Positions 1 through 45,570 of a stretch of 64,000 nucleotides of DNA are shown piece by piece. Position 1 is the first letter of the stretch, and each line of letters starts with the position of its first letter. The stretch lies in contig OZ022584.1 of NCBI GenBank assembly GCA_963669155.1, positions 7,027,362 through 7,091,361 of the forward strand, in the 5' to 3' direction. Made by a program: the position numbers and the translations under genes. The notes below the pieces were generated by a model. The model saw only the letters and a program-made list of their open reading frames with translations. It was not told where the DNA came from and did not search any database. Origin of the DNA: Arbacia lixula (taxonomy: Eukaryota; Echinodermata; Echinoidea; Arbacioida; Arbaciidae).

Positions 1-1318
1 ACATGTTAGAGTTTTGTACAAGTCTTACAGGTGCAAATTGGTTGTTTTGTACTAAGATATGTGTACTTATGTACTAGATTAAAATAAACAGTGCTTTGTC
101 TTGATGATGATGCTCTACTTATATTGTATCAAGATTTACAGCTTTCTCAATGATTATGTTGCCCCTATGCATGTAAGTAAATTCTACTTTTCCTAGACAT
201 CAAATATATGGAAGATTATATTGATATATTCTGCTTTGTAACACTGGTATGTCATGAAGGAATGATAATGCTAATATAAAACATGTGAAATCAGTACAAC
301 TCACAACATATTTGCATTTTGACATACTTATTTCTTGGAAATGTATTTCAAAACATGCCCACGCCTCTCCCAAACAACACACCTAAATCCCATAAACAGG
401 TAGCAGTATTTTGGTTGGAATGTAAAGGGTTAAAATCACTAGTTTATTTAAGGTCGACAAAATTTGTGCTCACCTTCTTGTCATAGAACGTGTTAAATGT
501 CGCTGAAAATGATTAAAAGCAATCCAGTAGGCTTTCACCTATTTCAAATACATGGATAGAGTGTGGACACTTGTTATATCATCCAAAAGCTCTGGAATTC
601 AGAGAATTTCATGGTTCCATGATGCAGGGGAATATATGAGGAATGTTGATGTTAATTAATGCAACAGCAGTTGGATTTGCACAATTTCCCGTCAGTATAA
701 GTCTTGGAATGAGAAAACAAGAGGATAATGTATTCATGGTCACTGTGAGTCTTACGTTTGCACACATACTAATGGTAGAGTGAAGCTTTTATTCCTTCAC
801 CAGACACAGTAGGTAGTTTCTCACCTTTCCATTTCCAATTTACAAGATTAAGGTGCTGAAAATGTTTTTTTTTGTGCATTTATACCTCGTCCAAGTGGCT
901 CTGCATGGGAAGGTTCTCATAGTTGTGTGAGTGCTGTAGCTTGCTGTAGTACTCATAGCTTGCTTTAGCCTTGCAAGTATCTTGGGAACCATGAAGAAAA
1001 TACTCACAAATTTGAGAAAGTATGTACTAGATTATGGGTATTATATATCTGGGATATTGCCAGAAGTTTGCTTTCACACTGGCAAAATCAGTGGTATTTT
1101 TGGCTTAGGGAGGTCTGAAAGTACCTATGGACACTAATTGTGACTGTTTATTTCTTATGCATTGTAGATATTTGAAAGTTTTATTCATTGACTATACACA
1201 GTGGGTTGGTTGCTTGGATTAGCCATGCTGCATTGACCACCCTTGTCAAGACAGACATGTCCATGCAGGCAGACTGGCAGGCAGACCCTTGTCCTGAATG
1301 TCAGGGAGACATTAACCC

Positions 1319-1690
1319 TTAAAGGGAATATACTGGGAAGGCAAAAAAACCCTTCCAAAATGTGATCATGAGCAATCTTATTGCCAATGATCTTAAATTC
1401 ATGTATTGTCCATTTTTATAAACCTGCCAAAAGTTATTTGCCCTCAAATGATCCACATTTTGTTTAAATAGTGATTAAGTCACAAATCCTCAAATTGTTT
1501 GGCCCGAACATTTTGAGGACTTGTGATTTAATCACCAAGTGCCCCAAATGTGGATCATTTGGAGGCAAATCACTTTCTGCAAGTTTTTAAAATGAACAGT
1601 ACATGAATTTAAGACCATTGTCAAGGAGATTTGCTCACGATCACCCTTTTGAAGGGCTTTTTGTCTTCCCAGTACAGTTATTCCCTTTAA
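1319..1690. mobile_element. TTAA-flanked foldback MITE, copy 1
   Basis: The two halves are inverted copies of each other: AGGGAATATACTGGGAAGGC at the left and its complement at the right, with TTAA at both outer edges (1319-1322 and 1687-1690). The arms are about 150 bp and the centre includes TTTGGCCCGAACATTTTGAG. Three more copies lie at 15669, 24529 and 59855. TTAA target duplications are typical of piggyBac-type insertion, but no transposase is present, so the superfamily is inferred. Confidence 0.85.
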
Positions 1691-2217
1691 CATGCTACTT
1701 ATTTATTTAACTTTATATTATTACTTACTTATTATTTACACATCAATACTCATGAATCCCATAGAACAGCATTTTGTCTGACACACGAAGGGGAAAAAAC
1801 AAATTTGTGTGTGAAAATATCCATGGTATGAACAGTGGCTCTGCCGTAACACAGACTTCAAGTATGCAATGATATACAGGATGAGCTAGCAAATGCTATT
1901 TTTCTCCCTTTTTTCCCCCTTTTCAGAGTGAAAATGTAGATGTGTCAGATGTGAACGCAATGCTATACATTTGTATTGTTATCTTTTTAGCAGATCAGAA
2001 ATGTCAATATAACCTTCAGTGTGATTCTATAATATTTGTCAGAATCTGGTACAAGGCCATCAATTATTGAGAGATGAAAAAGTTAGGCATGATATTTTGC
2101 GTCATTGTTCTTTTATCTTTGTTAAAAGGCCACGACCTTATCAATAATTGAACACTGCTATTGCAACTAAGTTAGTGTCTGGAACAAAGTCAGTTATCAT
2201 TTAGGGAGTAACGGTAC

Positions 2218-2953
2218 TAAACACAACAAGAAAGTAAGTCCCCCCTCCCCCATGCAAAATAGCAAAACTTTTTATCAAAGAGGTTTTGGGCAAAATAATT
2301 TGGCAGGATTGTTTCTTAACTTATTGCCTAACTTATGTGTGAAAATCATATTAATCCGATTAGTCATGCATGAGTGCGCAAATTTTAAAGGCAAAAAATG
2401 GTAATTTTGGGATTCTGTCATATGAATTTTTGATGAATTCCATTTCTGGTGCATAATTTATGTCCTTTCAATGTTTATCATCTGTCTCTCGATGCACTAA
2501 CACCTATCCCGACACTTAACTGATTGTTCTGGTTGACTGAGCACCATTTAACAAATACTCATCCTTCTTGAGTTTGAAACTTTTAAAAAAACCTTTATTT
2601 TTGTGAAAAAATAAAACTCTTGATATTTTGACAAATATGTAGCATGACCTGTTATGTAAGCATAAGAAGTCGTTTTAGTGTCATGGTTGAGTGAAAACAC
2701 TTTAAACATCGCACAAAAATGCAAAAATGTATTGTTAAAACGGCATAAACAATTACCCTTGTGACTTTTGAAAAGTGACATTTTTGCCTTATTTGCCCAC
2801 TCATGCATGACTTATTGGTTTAATGTGATTTTCACACAGAAGTTAGTCTATAAGTTAAGGAACAATCCTGCCAAATTAATTTGCCCCAAACCTTTTCGAT
2901 AAAAAGTTATGTTATTTTGCTTAGGGGGGACTTACTTTTTTTTTTTGTGTTTA
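2218..2953. mobile_element. Foldback element with TAAACACAA termini
   Basis: The left arm (from 2218) and right arm (to 2953) are inverted copies covering TAAACACAA, AAGTAAGTCCCCCC, the GGCAAAATAATTTGGCAGGA block and GTCATGCATGAGTG. The arms are diverged by several indels. A third arm with the same terminus and the same TTTATGCAAAATAATTTAACAGG-type block starts at 63883 and runs off the window. It is non-autonomous, with no coding sequence. Confidence 0.75.
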
Positions 2954-3335
2954 GATAGATTTATTCACAAAGAATTAGTTTTTACTCAACAGTCTCCATT
3001 GGTATTGCCAAAGCCATGTACTCCCTCTGAGTAGAAATGTGTATATTTGTGTCAATATAATGCCACATGCCAAATTTTTTATAGATGTTTGTCTACATGA
3101 TTACAGTTTGACATATCCATTGGTGGTGTGGTCAAAGCCATTAATAACATCAAGTAGAAATATAGAAATGCATAAATCATCATAGCATCTCTTATCATAT
3201 GACAACATTCATCAGTGCCGTTAGTGACATTAATTGCAATGATAAAACAAATATATCCATGTGTTGTGTCTTTATTATCATAGTCTTTATTTTTGACAAT
3301 AGCCATGAGAGTCACAAATTACACATAAAAAAGAA

Positions 3336-3482
3336 AAGCTTCCCACCTTCAATCTTCCACATGTTGTCAATTTCTTTTGATGCACTTCGCATGAGAGCCA
3401 GCGCAGCAATGCTCCATCAAGCTCAGTAGTGCATCGAGAGAAATGGACAACATGTGGAAGATTGAAGGCAGGAAGCTTTGTC
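3336..3482. repeat. Imperfect hairpin, about 50-bp arms
   Basis: AAGCTTCCCACCTTCAATCT at 3338 pairs with AGATTGAAGGCAGGAAGCTT ending at 3480. Pairing continues inward through the CACATGTTGTC/GACAACATGTG block to GATGCAC/GTGCATC, leaving a loop of about 45 nt. It lies in the intron just upstream of the first visible kinase exon. It may be a very short MITE or a transcribed hairpin; nothing distinguishes these. Confidence 0.6.
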
Positions 3483-3847
3483 CAAGTCGTGGCCAGAATG
3501 ACAATGAAATGGAACTTTTCAGTGAAGATAATTTATTGATTTACTGGTTCTCTTGTTTATATTTCTTGATTTATAAGCATACACATAAACTTTACGCTCA
3601 TTGTTTGAGTGAATGCTTTTGTTTGTGTCTCAGCAGGTAATCACCTGACCTGGCGCAAATGGGTTTTGACACTTTTTCAAACAATGGCTGTTGTGCACTC
3701 AACCATAACAAGAACACTGAAACAAATTTTACCAAGTGACAAAGGAATATTTGCCCTATCCATACATTCTAGAAATTCTCTCTGAATCCCATATTTCCTT
3801 TAAAAAATACTTAATTTTAATTTCTGACTCGGCCTGTATACAGGTGA

Positions 3848-4021
<174 letters not shown>

Positions 4022-4185
4022 TAAAGATAGCGTTTGTGATTGGGACACATTTTATGCGATGTAACCTCTTCGTTTATGCCCTCAAATGTACCGGTACTGT
4101 GACATTTTTAAAAGCAGTGTACATGATTTAAGATCAGCTAGATTAAAGGGCATTCTGGGGTGATTTCAATTTGAAAAGATATTTT

Positions 4186-4510
4186 AGGTGTACACCAAAG
4201 AGTAGTAAGGATACTTTGCACCATCGTGTAAATGAAAAATAAGTCAGAAAATATCTTGGAACCAGAAGGGTTTGAACCTGCAATGTACGATGCTTACTGG
4301 GCAGCAACTTAAAACCATCAGGCTATTTCTACTATCCTCTTTTATTTGTTTCCATGTTATCGTGTCTTTATCCATGAACTAGAAATAATCTAATGGTAAG
4401 TCGCTGCCCGGTGAGCAAAAGATTGCCGGCTCAAATTGTTTTGGTTCACTTGTTTTTCATTCGCTTACAGGATCGAGCATGCTATCTTATACTGTTGGGT
4501 GTATGCCTAT
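4186..4510. repeat. Inverted pair of tRNA-derived (SINE-like) sequences
   Basis: The two arms are inverted copies (ATGAAAAATAAGTC... against ...TTGTTTTTCATTCGC). On the minus strand about 4257-4326 has an A-box-like TAGCCTGATGG and a B-box GGTTCAAACCC at tRNA-like spacing. The plus-strand arm has a weaker version (AATCTAATGG, CCGGCTCAAATTG). It does not fold as a clean tRNA, so a SINE or tRNA-derived foldback is the better reading. Confidence 0.5.
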
Positions 4511-5099: not shown

Positions 5100-6198
5100 A
5101 ATGTTAAAGTTTACCTGCAAGACTCTCTTTTGACAAATAACTTCACATGGATTGCTTGGATTACAACCTAACTTGGGTCATAGATGCACTGGGGGTACCT
5201 TCATGTTATGGTGCCGTTGGAGGTCACAGGATAAGGTCAAAGGTCATTTGAGGTCATACGTTAAAGTTTACCTGCAAGACTCTCTTTTGACAAATAACTT
5301 CACATAGGTTGCTTGGATTACAACCTAACTTGGGTCATAGATGCACTGGGGGTACCTTCATGTTATGGTACCATTGGAGGTCACAGGATAAGGTCAAAGG
5401 TCATTTGAGGTCATACGTTAAAGTTTACCTGCAAGACTCTCTTTTGACAAATAACTTCACATGGGTTGCTTGGATTACAACCTAACTTGGGTCATAGATG
5501 CACTGGGGGTACCTTCATGTTATGGTATCGTTGGAGGTCACAGGATAAGGTCAAAGGTCATTTGAGGTCATACGTTAAAGTTTACCTGCAAGACTCTCTT
5601 TTGACAAATAACTTCACATGGGTTGCTTGGATTACAACCTAACTTGGGTCATAGATGCACTGGGGGTACCTTCATGTTATGGTATCGTTGGAGGTCACAG
5701 GATAAGGTCAAAGGTCATTTGAGGTCATACGTTAAAGTTTACCTGCAAGACTCTCTTTTGACAAATAACTTCACATGGGTTGCTTGGATTACAACCTAAC
5801 TTGGGTCATAGATGCACTGGGGGTACCTTCATGTTATGGTGCCGTTGGAGGTCACAGGATAAGGTCAAAGGTCATTTGAGGTCATACGTTAAAGTTTACC
5901 TGCAAGACTCTCTTTTGACAAATAACTTCACATAGGTTGCTTGGATTATAACCTAACTTGGGTCATAGATGCACTAGGGGTACCTTCATGTTATGGTGCT
6001 GTTGGAGGTCACAGGATAAGGTCAAAGGTCATTTGAGGTCATACGTTAAAGTTTACCTGCAAGACTCTCTTTTGACAAATAACTTCACATAGGTTGCTTG
6101 GATTACAACCTAACTTGGGTCATAGATGCACTGGGGGTACCTTCATGTTATGGTACCGTTGGAGGTCACAGGATAAGGTCAAAGGTCATTTGAGGTCA
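5100..6198. repeat. 157-bp satellite, seven tandem copies
   Basis: The word TACGTTAAAGTTTACC recurs at 5257, 5414, 5571, 5728, 5885 and 6042, an exact 157-bp period. Copies differ by only a few bases (for example TGGTGCCG, TGGTACCA, TGGTATCG), so the array is recently homogenised. Each copy contains several spaced AGGTCA words (GGTCACAGGATAAGGTCAAAGGTCATTTGAGGTCAT). Confidence 0.95.
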
Positions 6199-6497
6199 GG
6201 GATACAATTCTTTTGCGTAGCAACGGAGATCGCGATATTTCTGGTTATTTTCGCAAGTGGGCGAGACACAATATTGCTAATGCCTTGTTTATTCAACACT
6301 TACTTTAAAAACTAGCATTGAAAGTCTTATTTAAAAATATACAATGAACAGAAAAATTGTACAATTTTACCAAGCACAAAACCCAAAATGAAAGGAGGTG
6401 TTTAAGAATAGGCAGGAAAACCAACCCTTCTTAGGAGTCCATCCTACTCAAGAAATTATCAGAGTTTGAAATAAGTATTATGGAAAGTTATGCTTGA

Positions 6498-7420
<923 letters not shown>

Positions 7421-10869: not shown

Positions 10870-12247
10870 GCATATTGGTTACAAGCAGGGATAATACAAC
10901 GCTTTCTCAAATTACATGTTAAATCACTTGATCAAATTTGGAGGACATGAACCTAATGAGAAATTAATCTGAGTAAAAAGCTGAACAATTGGAGAAGCAC
11001 AATGCCAAAAGCTTGTGCCAAATTGAAACTGATTAACAATTTTTGTAAACATCACAATCCTGTGTCCTAAAACTCACAATGTAATTGCTTAATCAAGGTA
11101 TCACTACAGTAGTTGGTTTTAATTAATGAATTGATGCATGACTCTTGATACAGATGAAGAAGCAAAAGGAGAGAGGTTGTAATCACATAGCCTCTTGCTA
11201 TGGAAGTAGATTAAAACTGCACAAAGAATATATTAGTTATATTTCTGAGTGATCAACATAGTGAGGGTTGCATATATGTTTTTTACAACGTCTTTTGGCT
11301 TATGGTCTGAGCGCAATTACTTTTATCAGTCAGGATACAGTCTGTCATTTCGTTCAACAATGACTGTAAAAAGTCTGTCGTAACATGAAATATGGCTTAT
11401 TTATACTTTTCCAGACTTTACAATCTGACAGTTTCGTTTATGATGACCAAACTAATTAGCAAAACTGAGAGGTAGAGGACATTTAATGTTTAACAAACAT
11501 GTACTCCCCTTCCATTCTAAATTTAGACACTCCTTTTCCCAGTATAAATGGGATAAGTGTCCCTGCTTCAATGGAGGTTTGTGTTTCACTTGTTATGTTT
11601 TCATAATTGTAAAGTATAATTATAAAGGAAATGTGTTTTGATATGTTTGTTGTAGTATGTAGGTTCATGCAAATGTCTTTTTAACATTTATACACAAATT
11701 ACTGGCTGTTTATGACTGCACAATCTGCAATAACTAGTCCCATGCTCCTACAAGCTTCAACACATGCTGTTGTCAATTGTGTTGTTAAAAAGCGATTGAC
11801 TTTGTACAAAATTGTTTGTTTAGTATTATTTTGAGAATTCATTATGGTGGGGGTTTTTTAGGTTAGCTTTGTTTTTGCATAATGAATCACTGCAATGGTG
11901 TGTACACTTCAGTTTAAGAATTAATGTGCCTCATTGAATAATTTTGCTGGTAGAATGTAAAGGACTTTATCAGCCATGTAAATTCTACCCAGAAAGTATA
12001 TGAGGCATCATAGATTGGACATTATCTATTTGAGAAAACACAGAATGCAATAGAATATTGTGTGTGTGAAAATGTATCAGTATCAATCAGTGTTTGAGTG
12101 AGAGTAGCATGTGTGACCACTACGATATCTTACCAGTCACAGAGGGATGCCGCTAACTTTTTACAAGGAAAGAAGGCGGAAACATGTGTTATTTGAAACA
12201 AACGAAAGCCATATGAAACAAATAATATATCACATTTTAAACTCATT
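10870..12247. other. Intron, no recognised feature
   Basis: AT-rich sequence with frequent stops on both strands and no exon-like block or obvious inverted repeat. Confidence 0.5.
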
Positions 12248-12560
12248 GGGCCATACTCTGAACAGAGGCTTAACGCAAACAGTGTACTGAACCTTGACTT
12301 ACTCTATGGGACGCCAAATAAAAGAAAGTGAAGCATTATTATTGATTTAATATAAGTGATTTTGTCCTTGGAATCACTTAGGTTTATTGAGTTTATCCAC
12401 ATAGAAGGTACAATAAATAATTGAAATCGACCACTGTTGTGGTTCTGTGATGAAAATCAATTCGGGGGTAGCATCGGACAATTTATTTGGCGTCCCATAA
12501 TGTTAGTCCAGGTTTACTACACTGTTAGCGTTGAACCTATTTTCAAAATAAGGGCCACTG
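12248..12560. mobile_element. MITE with about 70-bp inverted termini (GGGCC ends)
   Basis: The left terminus GGGCCATACTCTGAACAGAG, then GCTTAACGCAAACAGTGTAC and ending TATGGGACGCCAAATAAA, has an inverted counterpart TTATTTGGCGTCCCATAATG...ACACTGTTAGCGTTGAACCT...AAGGGCC on the right. The centre is AT-rich spacer. The long termini and short body suit a non-autonomous DNA element; the superfamily is not assigned. Confidence 0.8.
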
Positions 12561-13429
12561 AAAAAAAAGGGACTGCCATATCCTGCTACCCTTGCCCGGC
12601 TTATACCGCTTGGAAGCGTTTTCTAAATGTAACTTGAAAGTAGCTTTCCACTCCTGCTGTCAGCCTATTTGAGTGCTTGTATCCCTTGAAGCTCTGTGCC
12701 CTGTTCTGCACCTGGTTGTCGGGTGTCAGGCAGGGCTGGGCCCATACCCATTCTAGTTTCAGTTTCAGATTACCTCCCAGTTTTCCAATTTATCAAATTG
12801 AGCCCATTAATGTCGGGAGATGAACTTATGGACTCCATTTAAAGTTCAAGCATGGGCTGGGTTTGCTCCCGGTGGATTACCCAGTGGATAGCCTCATAGC
12901 ACGTTTTGAGAATAATTTAGTTGCATTTGCCAGGCAATCTGAACTGTGCTGCGGTGATAGATTTACTGTAGTGTGAGAAGGCATGGTATCGCTTTCCCTG
13001 AACATAATGCAGAGTCTCAATCTTCATATCCAATGTATCTTTTAAAAATGTTCTTTTAAGGCAAATTAAGAATTGATGGATTTGTAACCATTTAAAAGCA
13101 ATTACAAAAACAGGAACAATATTTAGTATTGTGAATCAATAAGAGGAAAGAAATTGGATTTCTTTTATGGTATTGGGGTCCATCAATATTAAGTCTTTAT
13201 GTGTTAGTGCACATTGTCTGATATACAAAGAGTGCACTTCATGTCAGATCATTCCTAAAGAGCACTTATCTACCACAGGAAGTCAGTGGTTTTCTCCCTG
13301 GTGGGGCTGGTATGTACTAATCATTGACCCCTAGTCGTATGGACTGAGCTCATGTTAGTATAGCTGATGTGAGTGTGAGCTCAGTGCTGGGGTTAACGTG
13401 ACTTCACTTTTCCCCTCGGAGGATCCAGT

Positions 13430-13532
13430 TCCAAGCTGAAGCAGAGAGCAAGCAAGTAGATGGAGATAGGGGGAGGGAGAGAAAGGAAAGAGTGAAGGGT
13501 AGAAACAGTGGAAGATAGAGAGAGGGAGAGAT

Positions 13533-13582
<50 letters not shown>

Positions 13583-13933
13583 AGAGAGAAGGAGGCAGAG
13601 GGAAAGAGAAAAGAGATGAAGGGAGAGAGAGATTTACAGAAGGGAAGAGGAGAGTATGGGATGGGAGGGAAGGAGAGAGGGAGAGGGATGGATAGATAGA
13701 TGAAAGGATAGGTGCATTATGTAAGAGAAAAGAAGGGGAGCGAGAGGAAAGAACAAATGAAAGGTGAGAGGGACATGTGAAGGGACAAAGAGAGGATGAA
13801 ATATGGATGCATAAATGAGGCAAATGTAAAAGGGGGATGAGAAAGAGAACAGGAAGAAAAAAAGTGTGAGCAAGGAGGAGAAGAGGGAAAGAGCAAGGAG
13901 GAGAAGAGAGAAAGAGAGAGAGGGGGGGGGTAG

Positions 13934-13999
<66 letters not shown>

Positions 14000-14454
14000 G
14001 ATGGAAAGGCTAGAATAGAATAGTGGAATAAAAGTCACATAATATTGGGAGACTATTGGAAATCCTACTCACATCTCTGCATAATGCTGTAGTCCTTTGG
14101 TCAAGTAATCACATTAGAGTCTGCCTAATTTTATTGAGGAGGACACTTGCATCTTGCATTGATGGTATGTGGATAGGTTCTTAAAATTATCAAATGTTGA
14201 TATACATGTAGTGAGGGTGGAAAGACATTGGGGAGGGGGGGGGGGGTACAGGGACAGTCAGAGCCAGAGAGAGATACACAGTGTAAGATGTAAGATATTA
14301 ACATATCCTCAAGAAAAACCATTCCTCTCTTGCATTGGTGACTTTGTGTTTTTAATTTGTCTATTAATCTGCAATGCAGTTGAGAGAAAGATAGAGTCCG
14401 ATAAAGGAGGGAAAAGAGAAACAAGCAAAGAGACAAAGAGTAAAAAAGGAACGC

Positions 14455-14502
<48 letters not shown>

Positions 14503-14740
14503 GAGATTGGTAGTCAGTTCAGAGGGAAAGATACTGAAAGGGAGCAAGAAAAGAGACACGTAAAGAGAGAGATGTGGAGTGTCATGCAGAGAGAGGGAGA
14601 GAGACTGACAGGTAGCAAGAAGAAAAAGATCAAGGAAATAAAGTGAGAAAGATAGATTGGGAGTCGGTTTAGAGGGAGAGAGATCAGTAAAGAGAGCGAG
14701 AGAGATATGCTGAATCAGGTAGAGAGGGGGAGAGGAGAGA
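13430..14740. repeat. GA-rich purine-tract region
   Basis: Four or more GA-dinucleotide arrays (about 13528-13575, 13938-14000, 14455-14500) are embedded in diverged GAGA/GGGA purine-rich sequence over about 1.3 kb. It lies in the intron between the exons at 10201 and 16078. Long Ser/Leu-rich or Arg/Glu-rich frames through it are repeat artefacts. Confidence 0.85.
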
Positions 14741-15039
14741 TAGACCCAGCCACTCTCTAGATGCGAGCTTGAGGGAACGTCGCGGCAACGGCTCTGTGCA
14801 CTTTCGTCGAGGTCGAGTGCCCGTCTTCCACGCGGCTCCCGACTTTGACGTCACCCCACACTCCACAAACACCAGCCTGACAGTCGCAGGCCGGGGTTGC
14901 TGCCATGCCCAAATACCTGTAGGGACATTCAATAATGTGCTTGACATGCCTCATGCAAACTTGAAGATGCACAGCCAGCCACCAACAGTCTTCGGTCCTC
15001 TCATTCTCTTGGTTTCAGACACTGTTTCAGATAATGTGG

Positions 15040-15577
15040 GTGTAGAGAGAGAGAGAGGGGGGGAGGGGGGAAGTTTCCCTTCAAATGTGTGTGTATTTTG
15101 TACAGAGAGAGAGGGATAATTATCCGTACAAATGTGTGTACATGTATAGTGCTCAGAAAAAGAGAGAGATAAGTTTCCTCGCAAATGTGTGTATACTGTG
15201 CAGAGAGAGAGAGAAATTATTTACTGTACAAATGTGTGTGTATAAGTATTCAGGAAAGAGAGAGAAACTTCCTCACAAATGTGTATATATTTGGCAGGCT
15301 GCAGAGAGTGTGTGTATAGTGTTCAGAGAGAGAGAATAAAAAAAAACACATTCTGTCAAATATGTTTCAAAAGTTTCAGATAATGTTTGTGAGGGATAAT
15401 TATCCTTACAAATGTGTGTGTAAAATTGTTCAGAAAAAGAGAGAGATAAGTTTCCTTAAAAAAGTTATGTATATTGTGCAGAGAGAGAAAAATCCTCATA
15501 AATGTGTATATATTTTGTAGAGAGAGGAAAATGATTTTCCTTTCAAATTTGTGTGTCTAGTATTCAGAATAGTATAT
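15040..15577. repeat. Minisatellite, 55-60 bp unit with CAAATGTGTGT and GAGAGA
   Basis: About eight imperfect units carry TTTCCT(T/C)(A/C)CAAATGTGTGT, TAT..TG..CAG and AGAGAGAGA in order. The array runs directly up to the decayed kinase exon copy at 15578. Confidence 0.75.
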
Positions 15578-15660
15578 GAACCCCCGGAGAGAGGATTTCT
15601 TACCTGGAGTAGCTGGCCAAACACCAGATCATGGCTGATGTTGACTGGGATGCCAGTGTA
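15578..15660 (+). pseudogene. Decayed duplicate of the STK32-like exon at 16078
   Basis: This segment aligns to 16090-16170 over about 80 bp, including GAGAGAGGAT, ACCTGGAG, CTGGCCAAACA, TCATGGCTGA and GTTGACTGGGATG. In the homologous frame it reads ERISYLE, then a TAG stop, then LAKHQIMADVDWDA, matching ERIANLEALAKHPFMADVDWD. There is no upstream pyrimidine tract and no acceptor. It sits between a minisatellite and a MITE, so it is an exon fragment made by local duplication and no longer able to code. Confidence 0.85.
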
Positions 15661-15668
15661 CTGCCATT

Positions 15669-16042
15669 TTAAAGGGAATATACTGTCATGGGAAGACAAA
15701 AATGCCTTCAAAATGTGATCACGAGCAATCTTCTTGCCAATGGTCTTAAATTCATGTATTATCCATTTTAGAAACTTGCTGAAAGTTATTTGCCCTCACT
15801 TAACCCACATTTGGAGTAATTAATGATTATTAGTGAAATCCTCACAATGTTCGGGCCGAACATATTGAGGATTTGTGATTTAATTACTAATTACTCCAAA
15901 TGTGGATCATTTGAGGGCAAATAACTTTCAGTAAGTCTCTAAAATGGACAATACATGAATTTAAAACCATTGGCAATAAGATTGCTCATAATCACCCTTT
16001 TGAAGGGCTTTTTGTCTTCCCAGTACAGTATATTCCCTTTAA
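15669..16042. mobile_element. TTAA-flanked foldback MITE, copy 2
   Basis: Same family as 1319-1690, with TTAA at 15669-15672 and 16039-16042 and inverted arms starting AGGGAATATACTG. It lies exactly between the decayed exon copy and the functional exon and ends 35 bp before the latter, so it may border the splice branch-point region. Confidence 0.9.
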
Positions 16043-41442: not shown

Positions 41443-42112
41443 TATAACATTTTTGTAACAACATGGCCTCATATTATTTGACCTTTTGACCCCTAAATGA
41501 GCTTTGACCCCATCATTCTCATCAAGACACATGTGGTATACCCAAGGATCATTTGTACCAAGTTTGATTGCAATTGATGCAGAATAAAGAAATGGGAGCA
41601 AGTTTTAAAAACAAAAACTTTAACATTTTTTAACGATATGGCCTCATGTTATTTGACCTTTTGACCCCTATATGACATTTGAACCCATCATTCTTATGAC
41701 GACACATGTGGTATAAATCAAGGATCATTTGTACCAAGTTTGATCACATTTGATGTAGACATAAAGAAATGAGAGCAAGTTAAACAAAAACTTTAACATT
41801 TTTGTAACAGACCGACGCACAGTGGGCCAGGCGTGAGCAAAAGTGCGCCAAAATAGGGGTTGGGTCATCAAAACAATATTTATTTTTTTCACATTCTAAG
41901 CAAAGATTACAACCTCTGGCATACCTCTGAGCAATATTTCTTCTTGAAATTGATTTTAAGTGGGTCATTTTTCTTTAAAAACATCGGATATTTGGATGAT
42001 TAAGTAAATTGTGTATAAAATGTATTACTGCGTTTTTTTGAAGTTTTTTGCTAAACGAATCATTTGATCTCCATAATATTGCATTTGCCTGTTGTAGAAT
42101 AGTTATTTCACG

Positions 42113-42960
42113 TCACTATACAGTTTAGAGGCAAACAAATGTTCCTCCCGGAAGTAAGTCATGATGCAACACAAAATAATGACAGGAAAACAGCATATAT
42201 TTTTTCATGCTCAAAAGTGGTCAACATTCCCGTCGATTCCCGCGCTACAAATATCATGATTGCCTTCATTACAGTTCATGCTTTACAATGGTACCAAATT
42301 TAGCTGCAGGTTTTTGCAAGTTTTTGAGTAATTCCTGTTTTCCACCCGCATGTTCGTCCTTTTTTCGCTTAAATCTGCCATGCGATACTGAGCGCGCACT
42401 GTGTACAGTACATACGCAGGCAACTCACACACACAACATGTACGCGTTTGTACACGAATACCTATATCACAAGCTTCACAGTCTACTTGCATTTTTCTTA
42501 GCTGATGAGACATGAAATGTCCGAGAATAACTCGTATTGATATAAAAACATGTGGATTGCATTTTGATATTCAGTGGGAGCACAACACTATACAGTTTAG
42601 AGGCAAAAAATATGCCTCCCGGAAGTAAGTCATGATGCAACCTAAAATAATGGCAGGAAAATGGCATATATTTTTTCATGCTCAAAAGTGGTCAACATTC
42701 CCGTCGATTCCCGCACTAAAAATATCATGATTGCCTTTATTACAGTTCATGCTTTACAATGGTACCAAAGCTGGCTGCATATTTTTGCACGTTTTTGAGT
42801 AATACCCATTTTCCACCCGCATGTTCGTCCTTTTTTCGCTTAAATCTGCCATCTGTGTCCAGATCATACGCCGGCAAATCACACACACATCATGTGCGCG
42901 TTTTTACACGAATACCGTATATCACAAGCTTCACAGTCTCCTTGCATTTTTCTTAGCTGA
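42113..42960. repeat. About 475-bp direct repeat within the Transib-like element
   Basis: CTATACAGTTTAGAGGCAAA, CCCGGAAGTAAGTCATGATG, TCAAAAGTGGTCAACATTCC and CATGTTCGTCCTTTTTTCGC occur in the same order at about 42118 and 42590. The copies are about 90% alike. Each holds a frame of 65-100 codons ending in a similar hydrophobic tail, unlike any family recognised. Confidence 0.85.
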
Positions 42961-43012
42961 TGGGACATGACAGAGAGAAAAATAGAGAAAGAGGGGATGA
43001 GAGACAAAGAGT

Positions 43013-43043
<31 letters not shown>

Positions 43044-43074
43044 AGGGGTATCAAGTGTCTGATCACTCTAAATC

Positions 43075-43650
43075 CCAACGTTTGAACAAATATTTTAAAG
43101 AAATACTTAATGATTTCGAATTATTGTAACACCATATTTATGACGTTTCTAAATGTATTCTCACAGCCAATCACATAGTGGTATCTAAATGACGTCATAT
43201 GTGTTTGAAAATATTTTCAGTGGATTCTAAGAGTCCATTCACCTTTAATCCCAGAATTGGAACATAAACTTTATGTAAAACTATAGTGATTACGAATCAT
43301 TATAACATGATAGATATATTGCTCAATGCATTCTCACAGCCAATCACAAAGCGGTATGTAAATGACGTCATATGTGTTTAAAAATGTTTCCAATGGATTC
43401 CACGTGTCTGATCACCCTTATTCCTAACCATTCAACATAAATCTATTAAAAAGACAGAGTGATCACCTATTAGTCTACAAATCATTTGTAACATTGTGTT
43501 ATTTAACATTGTATTTTCACAACCAATCAGAAAGCGGTATTTTAATGACGTCATATGTGTTTGAAACTATTTTCATTGGATTCCGCGGGTCTGATTTCCA
43601 TACAAACCAACATTTAAACATAAATTTTAGAAAAATATTGGTGATTGCGA
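43075..43650. repeat. Three and a half tandem units, each with CCAAT and CRE (TGACGTCA)
   Basis: Units of about 173-183 bp repeat CAGCCAATCACA(T/A)AG.GGTAT and AATGACGTCATATGTGTTT. The palindrome TGACGTCA is exact at 43190-43197, 43363-43370 and 43546-43553, each about 20 bp after a CCAATCA box. This pairing resembles a promoter arrangement for ATF/CREB and NF-Y factors, though function is unproven. Confidence 0.85.
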
Positions 43651-44135
43651 GTTTTGGCGCACTTTGAAACCATTCTGGCCCACTGTGCGACGGGCCAACA
43701 GACCAACAGGAAAAGTGAACTTTGTTCAGGCGAGACAAAAATACGCAGAACGGCTCCTTATTTTGTACAATCTGCATTATAATGCAAATTACAATGCATT
43801 ATAAGGGGGAAACTGTTGAAGTGGGAGAATTCTAAGAAGATTCTTGAACCCATTCTATAAAATCACATACCTTGCAATATTAAAAACAACCTGTTAGACG
43901 GTGGCGCGCACCGCGACGGGCTCGAACAAAGGGTATCAGCTAGGTGGCAGAGTCGTGAACGTTCACCATCCAGCCCACAGTGCTTTCATTCGGGTCTTTC
44001 GCAATTATTGCTTACAACAGGTTATGGGTTAACCCTCGGATTACTATTGGCATTAATTTATGCAGTTAGTCAATCTGCTTTTGCAAGGGTGTGCAATGTA
44101 AGGGTTTAATGGGCTTGACTGTTTCCGCATCTCAC

Positions 44136-44241
44136 CTATGTCAGTGGCCTTCTCGAAGCACACGGGTTCGAGTCCCTCCTCGAGACAGGACTTCACGGAG
44201 ACCAATCCCGCGACCCCAGCTCCGATGACGGCTACGCGCAT
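44136..44241 (-). CDS. FMO: Flavin-containing monooxygenase, exon 1 (start codon and FAD motif)
   Basis: The start ATG is at 44241, and the donor is ATAG/GTGAGA in phase 1. It encodes MRVAVIGAGVAGLVSVKSCL then EEGLEPVCFEKATDIG. GAGVAG (residues 7-12) is the GxGxxG FAD-binding motif and FE(K).(..)DIGG..W continues into exon 2. This Met starts exactly where FMOs usually start. The seven exons (106, 149, 319, 56, 391, 248 and 366 nt) sum to 1635 nt, so the protein is 544 residues, normal for the family. FMOs use NADPH and oxygen to oxygenate soft nucleophiles such as amines and sulfides. Confidence 0.95.
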
Positions 44242-44288
44242 TTTGACTGCATAGGCATAGAGGGATGGTGGGGGAGAGAGAGGTAAAA

Positions 44289-44345
44289 GGCGGGGTAAAG
44301 GGCGGGGTAAAGGGCGGGGTAAAGGGCGGGGTAAAGGGCGGGTAA
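44289..44345. repeat. 12-bp tandem repeat (GCGGGGTAAAGG) just upstream of the FMO start
   Basis: Four full units plus a partial of GCGGGGTAAAGG lie 48-104 bp upstream of the FMO ATG (5' UTR or core promoter on the minus strand). The regular G runs could form a quadruplex, and GGGGCGGG/GGGCGGGG-like words resemble GC boxes. Confidence 0.9.
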
Positions 44346-45570
44346 CATGAGCAGCGGAGGAGAGGGGTGGAGTAAAAAGATTGAACGAGATATCCCAAAA
44401 GGGGGACAGGGCGGCGGAGGGGAGGGGGAGAACGTATAAACGAAAGAGAGTGGGTGAGGGGAGCGGTGATGGTAAATCAGGAGGGTGGGAAGAGACGGGA
44501 AAACATGAGGGAGGAGATTGAGGAGAGAGGGGGAAGGAAAGAGAAATAGCATAAGAGATTAAAAAAAAAACAGGTAGGTAAAAAGTGCAAAAGAGAGGGA
44601 GAACGACATCGGGGAAAGGGAATAAGTAAAGAAGAAAAGTGGAGAGAGGGGTACAGGAAGGGGTAGGGAGACTGAAGTCATTAACGTACACGTGGGAATA
44701 TATCCAGAGAGGGAGAGGGAGAACAAGGAACGGAAACAAGGATTATGATATGAATATGAACCTCGAAGTCCATACGATAATCATTCATGTAATACGAAAA
44801 GCACAGAATTGTATTTCACAACTGGGTGGATGCAGCCTTTTGCCAAAGGGTTGGGAGGGGGAGGGGGGGGGGGGGGCAGCTAGGAGCGAGACTTTGCGTG
44901 CGGGTCTTCGGAGGAGAGATTCGTTTGTCCGATCGGGAAATCATTACTTGAGAGTGAAGGGGGGGGGGGGGTGGGATTCAACCTCATAAATCCCCTTCTT
45001 TAAAAAAAAAATCGGGAGGGGGGGGGGGGGGGGCGTTAAACCCCCTAAATCCCCAGATTTTAGGAGGTTTAACCCCATGCACCCACCCGTAGATCCGCCA
45101 CAGGTTCAATCCCGCTCCTGACACTAAACGTCTATACGTTCTGAAGACAAGAAAGCGGCTGTTTTTCATGTTACTTGTCCGAAAGGAAAATACATCTATC
45201 TGAAAGTAACGTTTCATGCAATTTTGTAAGCAGGTATAATGCGGAACATTGAGACTTTTATACTGCAACATGATATCACGTTTAGAGTCTTTTTGCCATA
45301 TTCCTCGGTTGAATCTTTACTGATGCATCGTAGGTATTACATGTCACAACTGCGCAAGCATATGGGGTGAGGATATTTTCCCAAATTCTTCTGCGCATCC
45401 GATTTTGTTTATACGTCAAATGCAGGCAAAACTCATCAAGAGAATCGGCGGCATTGAACATCGAGATCAAAGAGAAAATATCTGTGAAGGGTTCTTTTGT
45501 GACTAGAAGGAGAGTACAATGAATCTGCATTAATTAAATGGCTGATGGATATCCATGTGCTTAAACATCC
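44346..45570. other. Upstream of FMO: purine-rich sequence and G runs
   Basis: 44350-44720 is strongly purine-rich on the plus strand (diverged GAGAGGG words), with long Ser/Pro/Leu frames on the minus strand that are composition artefacts. G runs occur at 44855-44874, 44959-44970 and 45018-45033. No coding exon is supported. Any FMO promoter would lie here. Confidence 0.4.

Follow-up and report, generated by a model that had tools for sequence, protein, structure and literature searches.

A gene-less element with RSS-heptamer ends in a sea urchin genome: very probably a non-autonomous Transib transposon

The Transib superfamily of DNA transposons gave rise to vertebrate RAG1, the antibody-shuffling enzyme, and gene-less Transib elements are a known kind. 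In a 64,000-bp stretch of Arbacia lixula DNA, analyzed whole and referred to here as the window, positions 41818 to 43687 hold a 1,870-bp element, both ends of which begin with the heptamer CACAGTG. The locus raises the question of what such an element is: a Transib, a passenger of a RAG-like transposon, a member of some other superfamily, or a chance inverted repeat. We conclude that it is very probably a non-autonomous member of the Transib superfamily, because its family shows 5-bp CGNCG duplications and because Transib transposase sequence is present in two larger relatives, L023 and L087.

Ends and surroundings of the window copy

The extent of the element was read directly from the window sequence. 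Its 13-bp inverted ends consist of CACAGTGGGCCAG at 41818-41830 and the reverse complement at 43675-43687. Immediately outside them lies an exact 5-bp target-site duplication, CGACG, on the left at 41813-41817 and on the right at 43688-43692, so that the inverted ends and identical flanks described in the earlier note are indeed what the sequence reads. The two ends are alike beyond the first 13 bp. The left terminal inverted repeat (41818-41853, plus strand) is made up of CACAGTGGGCCAG, a 9-bp spacer that differs between the ends, and then AAAGTGCGCCAAAA (element positions 23-36). The right one (43652-43687, minus strand) has the identical 13-bp and 14-bp blocks at the same 9-bp spacing.

The earlier note had likened both ends to an RSS with a 23-bp spacer. 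The heptamer part of that comparison holds, CACAGTG being the RSS heptamer consensus (available text of PMC8289069), and the nonamer part does not. The blocks CCAAAATAG and CCAAAACTC, 23 bp past the heptamer, agree with the nonamer ACAAAAACC at five and six, respectively, of its nine positions. Across both strands of the element, matches of at least 5/9 occur at 7.8% of positions and matches of at least 6/9 at 1.7%, and at other spacings both ends hold nonamer matches that are as good or better. We therefore dropped the nonamer with its 23-bp spacer as specific evidence, since it lies near background. The inner block common to both ends starts within the supposed 23-bp spacer, and a layout of 13 bp plus 9 bp plus AAAGTGCGCCAAAA suits the ends better than heptamer-23-nonamer. 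A weak nonamer fits the picture of Transib ends given in the accessible part of PMC8289069, where most Transib families are said to have symmetric ends with similarity to the heptamer and little or none to the nonamer.

The window copy encodes no recognizable protein. All of its open reading frames (ORFs) are 110 amino acids (aa) or shorter, and the longest had no Pfam match. The element had no match among phage records, and no Rfam families were found in the 64-kb window. Elsewhere in the window, a tandem array at 5103-6198 contains seven copies of a 157-bp unit with 98% matches. The interval 12001-16000 is strongly skewed on the plus strand, with more G than C and more A than T (GC skew, 0.297; AT skew, 0.147), and its minus strand carries long serine/leucine frames of low complexity.

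The left flank of the element is part of a repeat that is present elsewhere in the window. At three paralogous sites, L001, L003, and L088, this repeat runs into right-flank sequence with no element between, and all three are without 16 bp present around the window junction. Similarity to the right flank at these sites extends only a short way, breaking up after exact runs of about 21 to 25 bases, and a search of the window with a 25-base junction sequence gave nothing. This supports insertion of the element into a preexisting repeat, the exact target aside.

About 380 bp from the right end of the element, an ORF on the minus strand (44053-44742) matches the flavin monooxygenase family over its last ~59 residues (PF00743, E = 3.3e-15). 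If this ORF is a first coding exon, as seems probable, the element would sit in an intron of, or close beside, a flavin monooxygenase gene.

Copies, duplications, and pairing of ends across the genome

We searched the genome (606,990,701 bases in 590 contigs) for the exact 13-mer CACAGTGGGCCAG and found 92 occurrences, versus 6 for the reversed pattern. All 92 places were fetched, which gave facing pairs at 24 loci on 15 contigs, and most of these pairs aligned at length to the window copy. A chance inverted repeat within repetitive DNA would have been compatible with the window taken by itself, where three sites with up to two mismatches stood against 1.03 expected; these counts are weak because 9 of 100 shuffles also reached three sites. 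Set against the genome-wide copies, such a coincidence is so improbable as to be negligible, and we dropped it.

An exact 5-bp duplication bounded 18 of the 24 facing pairs. In 16 of these 18 it had the form CGNCG; the remaining two were CAGCG and CGCCC. Six pairs had no exact duplication (L012, L019, L023, L027, L029, and L031), and none of the 24 had a duplication of 6 bp or longer. When the 92 ends were typed by their inner sequence, 51 were of the left type, 30 were of the right type, and 11 were neither. CGNCG preceded 56 of the 81 typed ends, some of which have flanks in common (for example, L037/L038 and L069/L070) and so are not all independent insertions, versus 2 of the 11 untyped ends; its background frequency was 50 in 64,000 window positions.

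These flanks bear on a further explanation, that the element belongs to the hAT or another superfamily with terminal inverted repeats and begins with CACAGTG by coincidence. Terminal inverted repeats starting with CA, like noncoding interiors, occur across several superfamilies, so these features would suit such an origin. The hAT superfamily makes an 8-bp duplication. The earlier note had named flanks of that length, or a hAT transposase in a relative, as evidence against a Transib. Tabulating the flanks of the other copies, as it had proposed, gave 5-bp duplications that were mostly CGNCG; no 8-bp flanks appeared among the 24 pairs, no duplication exceeded 5 bp, and the relatives with these ends carry Transib transposase sequence and no hAT transposase. 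We consider the hAT explanation extremely improbable and set it and the other superfamilies aside on the strength of the CGNCG flanks and the transposase match.

Among 13 copies of 1,600 to 1,950 bp, picked by length from 22 oriented copies, the median pairwise K2P distance was 0.038 and the maximum was 0.234. One outlier, L011, which is probably rearranged, was retained in the set; its distance to the window copy was 0.213. A median this low suggests a fairly recent spread of the family. Diverged ends at L046, L057, and L091 retain the bipartite layout with one to five mismatches, and the two of these loci that have a facing pair showed no matching 5-bp flanks. Diverged Transib-like elements with bipartite ends lie at L091 4488-8046 and L046 1001-1968, and the former holds a transposase-like stretch.

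One copy, L062, differs in the way its ends are paired. Both of its ends are of the left type; the element measures 1,859 bp, its arms are 81% identical over 499 positions, and an exact CGTCG duplication flanks it. Left-left pairs were also present at L019 and L031. As neither of these has an exact duplication, it is L062 that bears on whether the ends are interchangeable. We tentatively suggest, with slightly less than even confidence, that the two ends are functionally equivalent, such that a pair of left ends would serve the transposase and fold-back derivatives could jump. If true, equivalent ends would offer a natural counterexample to any 12/23-like requirement that the two ends differ.

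At seven loci (L040, L054, and L062 to L066), four of them on contig 21, a common sequence ending in CAATAGACGTCG lies directly before the left end. L062 has the variant ATGTCG at this position, and part of the common sequence forms an inverted repeat inside L062. We read this sequence as a second repeat, one that either bears a Transib end or stops at one.

Transposase-bearing relatives and origin of the gene-less form

The 2,817-bp copy L023 has both ends exact and a 247-aa open frame that matched the HzTransib chain 6pqn (E = 9.5e-32); it retains just a C-terminal part of the transposase. A genome search with this 247-aa protein returned 12 matching stretches, L023 included, on six contigs. 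L023 and L087 to L091 together cover all 12, and their frames are broken or partial. No intact transposase was found among these loci in a check of the best candidates as unspliced frames.

A second copy, L087, is about 4.4 kb long; its left end, at 509, is exact, and its right end is degraded. Its left and right noncoding parts are 91 to 96% identical to the window copy, and between 2005 and 4096 it holds four transposase pieces split by in-frame stops and a frame change. A 254-aa piece matched HzTransib (E = 4.5e-51) and, up to E = 10, had just one further match, a UPF0642 protein (E = 1.1); a 150-aa piece matched HzTransib alone up to that limit (E = 6.4e-15). The N-terminal 205-aa piece matched nothing meaningful among solved structures. 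Pfam gave no match for L023 and none above the cutoff for the four L087 pieces. The 254-aa and 150-aa pieces align to HzTransib chain positions 249-480 and 125-237, respectively. The catalytic residues of HzTransib are D126, D225, and E436 (PMC6941560, available portion). Applying a chain offset of 17 that we derived, D225 and E436 are kept in the L087 pieces, and D126 falls outside the aligned part. The glutamate of an EARNK motif was invariant in an alignment of 11 proteins, selected from this genome and including 9 of 28 relatives found; through the same offset, we equate it with E436. The long transposase-coding copy that the earlier note had suggested looking for is represented by L023 and L087, in which the HzTransib-like sequence is broken or partial.

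The element might instead be a passenger of a RAG-like (ProtoRAG or TransibSU) transposon encoding RAG1L and RAG2L, as the earlier note had allowed in naming the ProtoRAG family. RAGL transposons likewise have 5-bp duplications and a heptamer-like end (PMC7204232, in the part available), TransibSU has been reported from the bat star (PMC4411706, likewise), and two proteins found here have their nearest named relatives in sea urchins. The catalytic L087 pieces, however, matched HzTransib, and up to E = 10 they hit neither RAG1 nor any RAG1-like chain. No RAG2-like domain was present in the four L087 pieces or in five further L087 ORFs, the longer ones, that were scanned. Given the HzTransib match and the lack of a RAG2-like part among the pieces scanned, we regard a RAG-like passenger as very unlikely and dropped the ProtoRAG assignment.

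What we found instead are the features of a Transib: a CG-rich 5-bp duplication, heptamer-like inverted repeats that start with CAC, and transposase sequence in relatives with matching ends. The other half of the earlier proposal, a non-autonomous Transib, finds support in the CGNCG duplications and the transposase in the larger relatives. No published description of this family was seen among the titles and abstract beginnings of the literature matches listed.

A larger locus, L021 (8,144 bp), was considered as an autonomous element and turned out to be a non-autonomous copy holding a nested non-LTR retrotransposon. The retrotransposon lies on the minus strand at 842-4465 and 5646-6581 inside the Transib copy and has a 1,208-aa endonuclease/reverse transcriptase frame whose five best relatives are 62 to 65% identical over the full length.

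The anatomy of the window copy can be read against these relatives. Its left subterminal part (41818-42589, plus strand) is shared with L023, at 84.9% over element positions 1-772, and in pieces with L087, at 95% over 1-221 and 92% over 383-700. An internal duplication of about 400 bp lies on the plus strand, with copy 1 at 42114-42515 and copy 2 at 42586-42970, the two being 88% identical over 403 aligned positions. The right subterminal part (43053-43681, plus strand) is shared with L087 at 95.6% over 630 positions. It contains three diverged direct repeats of 159 nt spanning 43146-43660 on the plus strand (43146-43304, 43319-43477, and 43502-43660), the second and third being 74% and 64% identical to the first.

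Each 159-nt repeat contains one copy of the palindrome TGACGTCA (43190-43197, 43363-43370, and 43546-43553). It may be a CRE-like factor site or belong to an internal promoter.

In L087, the gene sits between the two noncoding parts, of which the left reaches element position 1243 and the right begins at 1236. Both the gene and the internal duplication are missing from the 1.4-kb copies L020 and L026, which lack copy 2. Because of this layout, loss of the gene and the duplication look like separate events, and L087, L020, and L026 do not agree with a replacement of the gene by the internal duplication. Judging from the alignments, copies of the window type probably descend from an autonomous element that would have lost its coding region near element position 1240 and, separately, undergone a tandem duplication of its left part.

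Movement of such a copy would depend on a Transib transposase supplied in trans by a larger relative and binding the bipartite ends. The enzyme would cut just outside CACAGTG, presumably through a nick and a hairpin, the route reported for HzTransib. It would then insert the element into a CG-rich target with a 5-bp stagger, the repair of which would make the CGNCG duplication.

Comparison with known systems

The closest point of reference is HzTransib from Helicoverpa zea (PDB 6pqn and five further entries), to whose chain the L087 pieces align. It is 3,518 bp long and encodes 489 aa, with the 5-bp duplication GCTCG (PMC1852546, available part). Like the window family, it makes a 5-bp duplication and has symmetric ends with an RSS-heptamer-like start (accessible text of PMC8289069). 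It differs in the sequence of that duplication and in having a gene, whereas the window copy is gene-less.

Transib N1 to N3 of Anopheles gambiae are presumably gene-less too, which we take from the convention behind their N names. They have Transib ends, as does the element here, a likeness drawn from their description (PMC8355894, available portion). In that same text they are cited among elements with 12/23 asymmetry, whereas the ends of the window element are equally spaced.

Two elements from the bat star resemble the window element, by description and not by the letters of their ends, in what is available of PMC4411706. TransibSU-1_PM has 13-bp identical ends with a 7-bp terminus like that of Transib and the RSS, and TransibSU-2_PM has a printed duplication of CCAGG; 13-bp ends and a 5-bp duplication are also found here. 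Unlike the window family, TransibSU-1_PM is reported to encode RAG1L and RAG2L. ProtoRAG of Branchiostoma, as far as the accessible part of PMC8289069 describes it, shares with the window family GC-biased 5-bp duplications and a terminal heptamer-like block followed by an inner conserved block. Its terminus is CACTATG, its spacing is asymmetric (27/31 bp), and it encodes RAG1L and RAG2L, whereas the window family has CACAGTG, symmetric ends, and only a Transib transposase among the proteins found.

The window element leaves the accepted picture of RAG1 origins unchanged. It adds a well-sampled Transib family with RSS-identical heptamers, a sharp preference for CGNCG, and transposase sequence still recognizable in its relatives. 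Such a family should help in setting Transib ends beside RAG signals and in asking whether a need for unlike ends predates V(D)J recombination.
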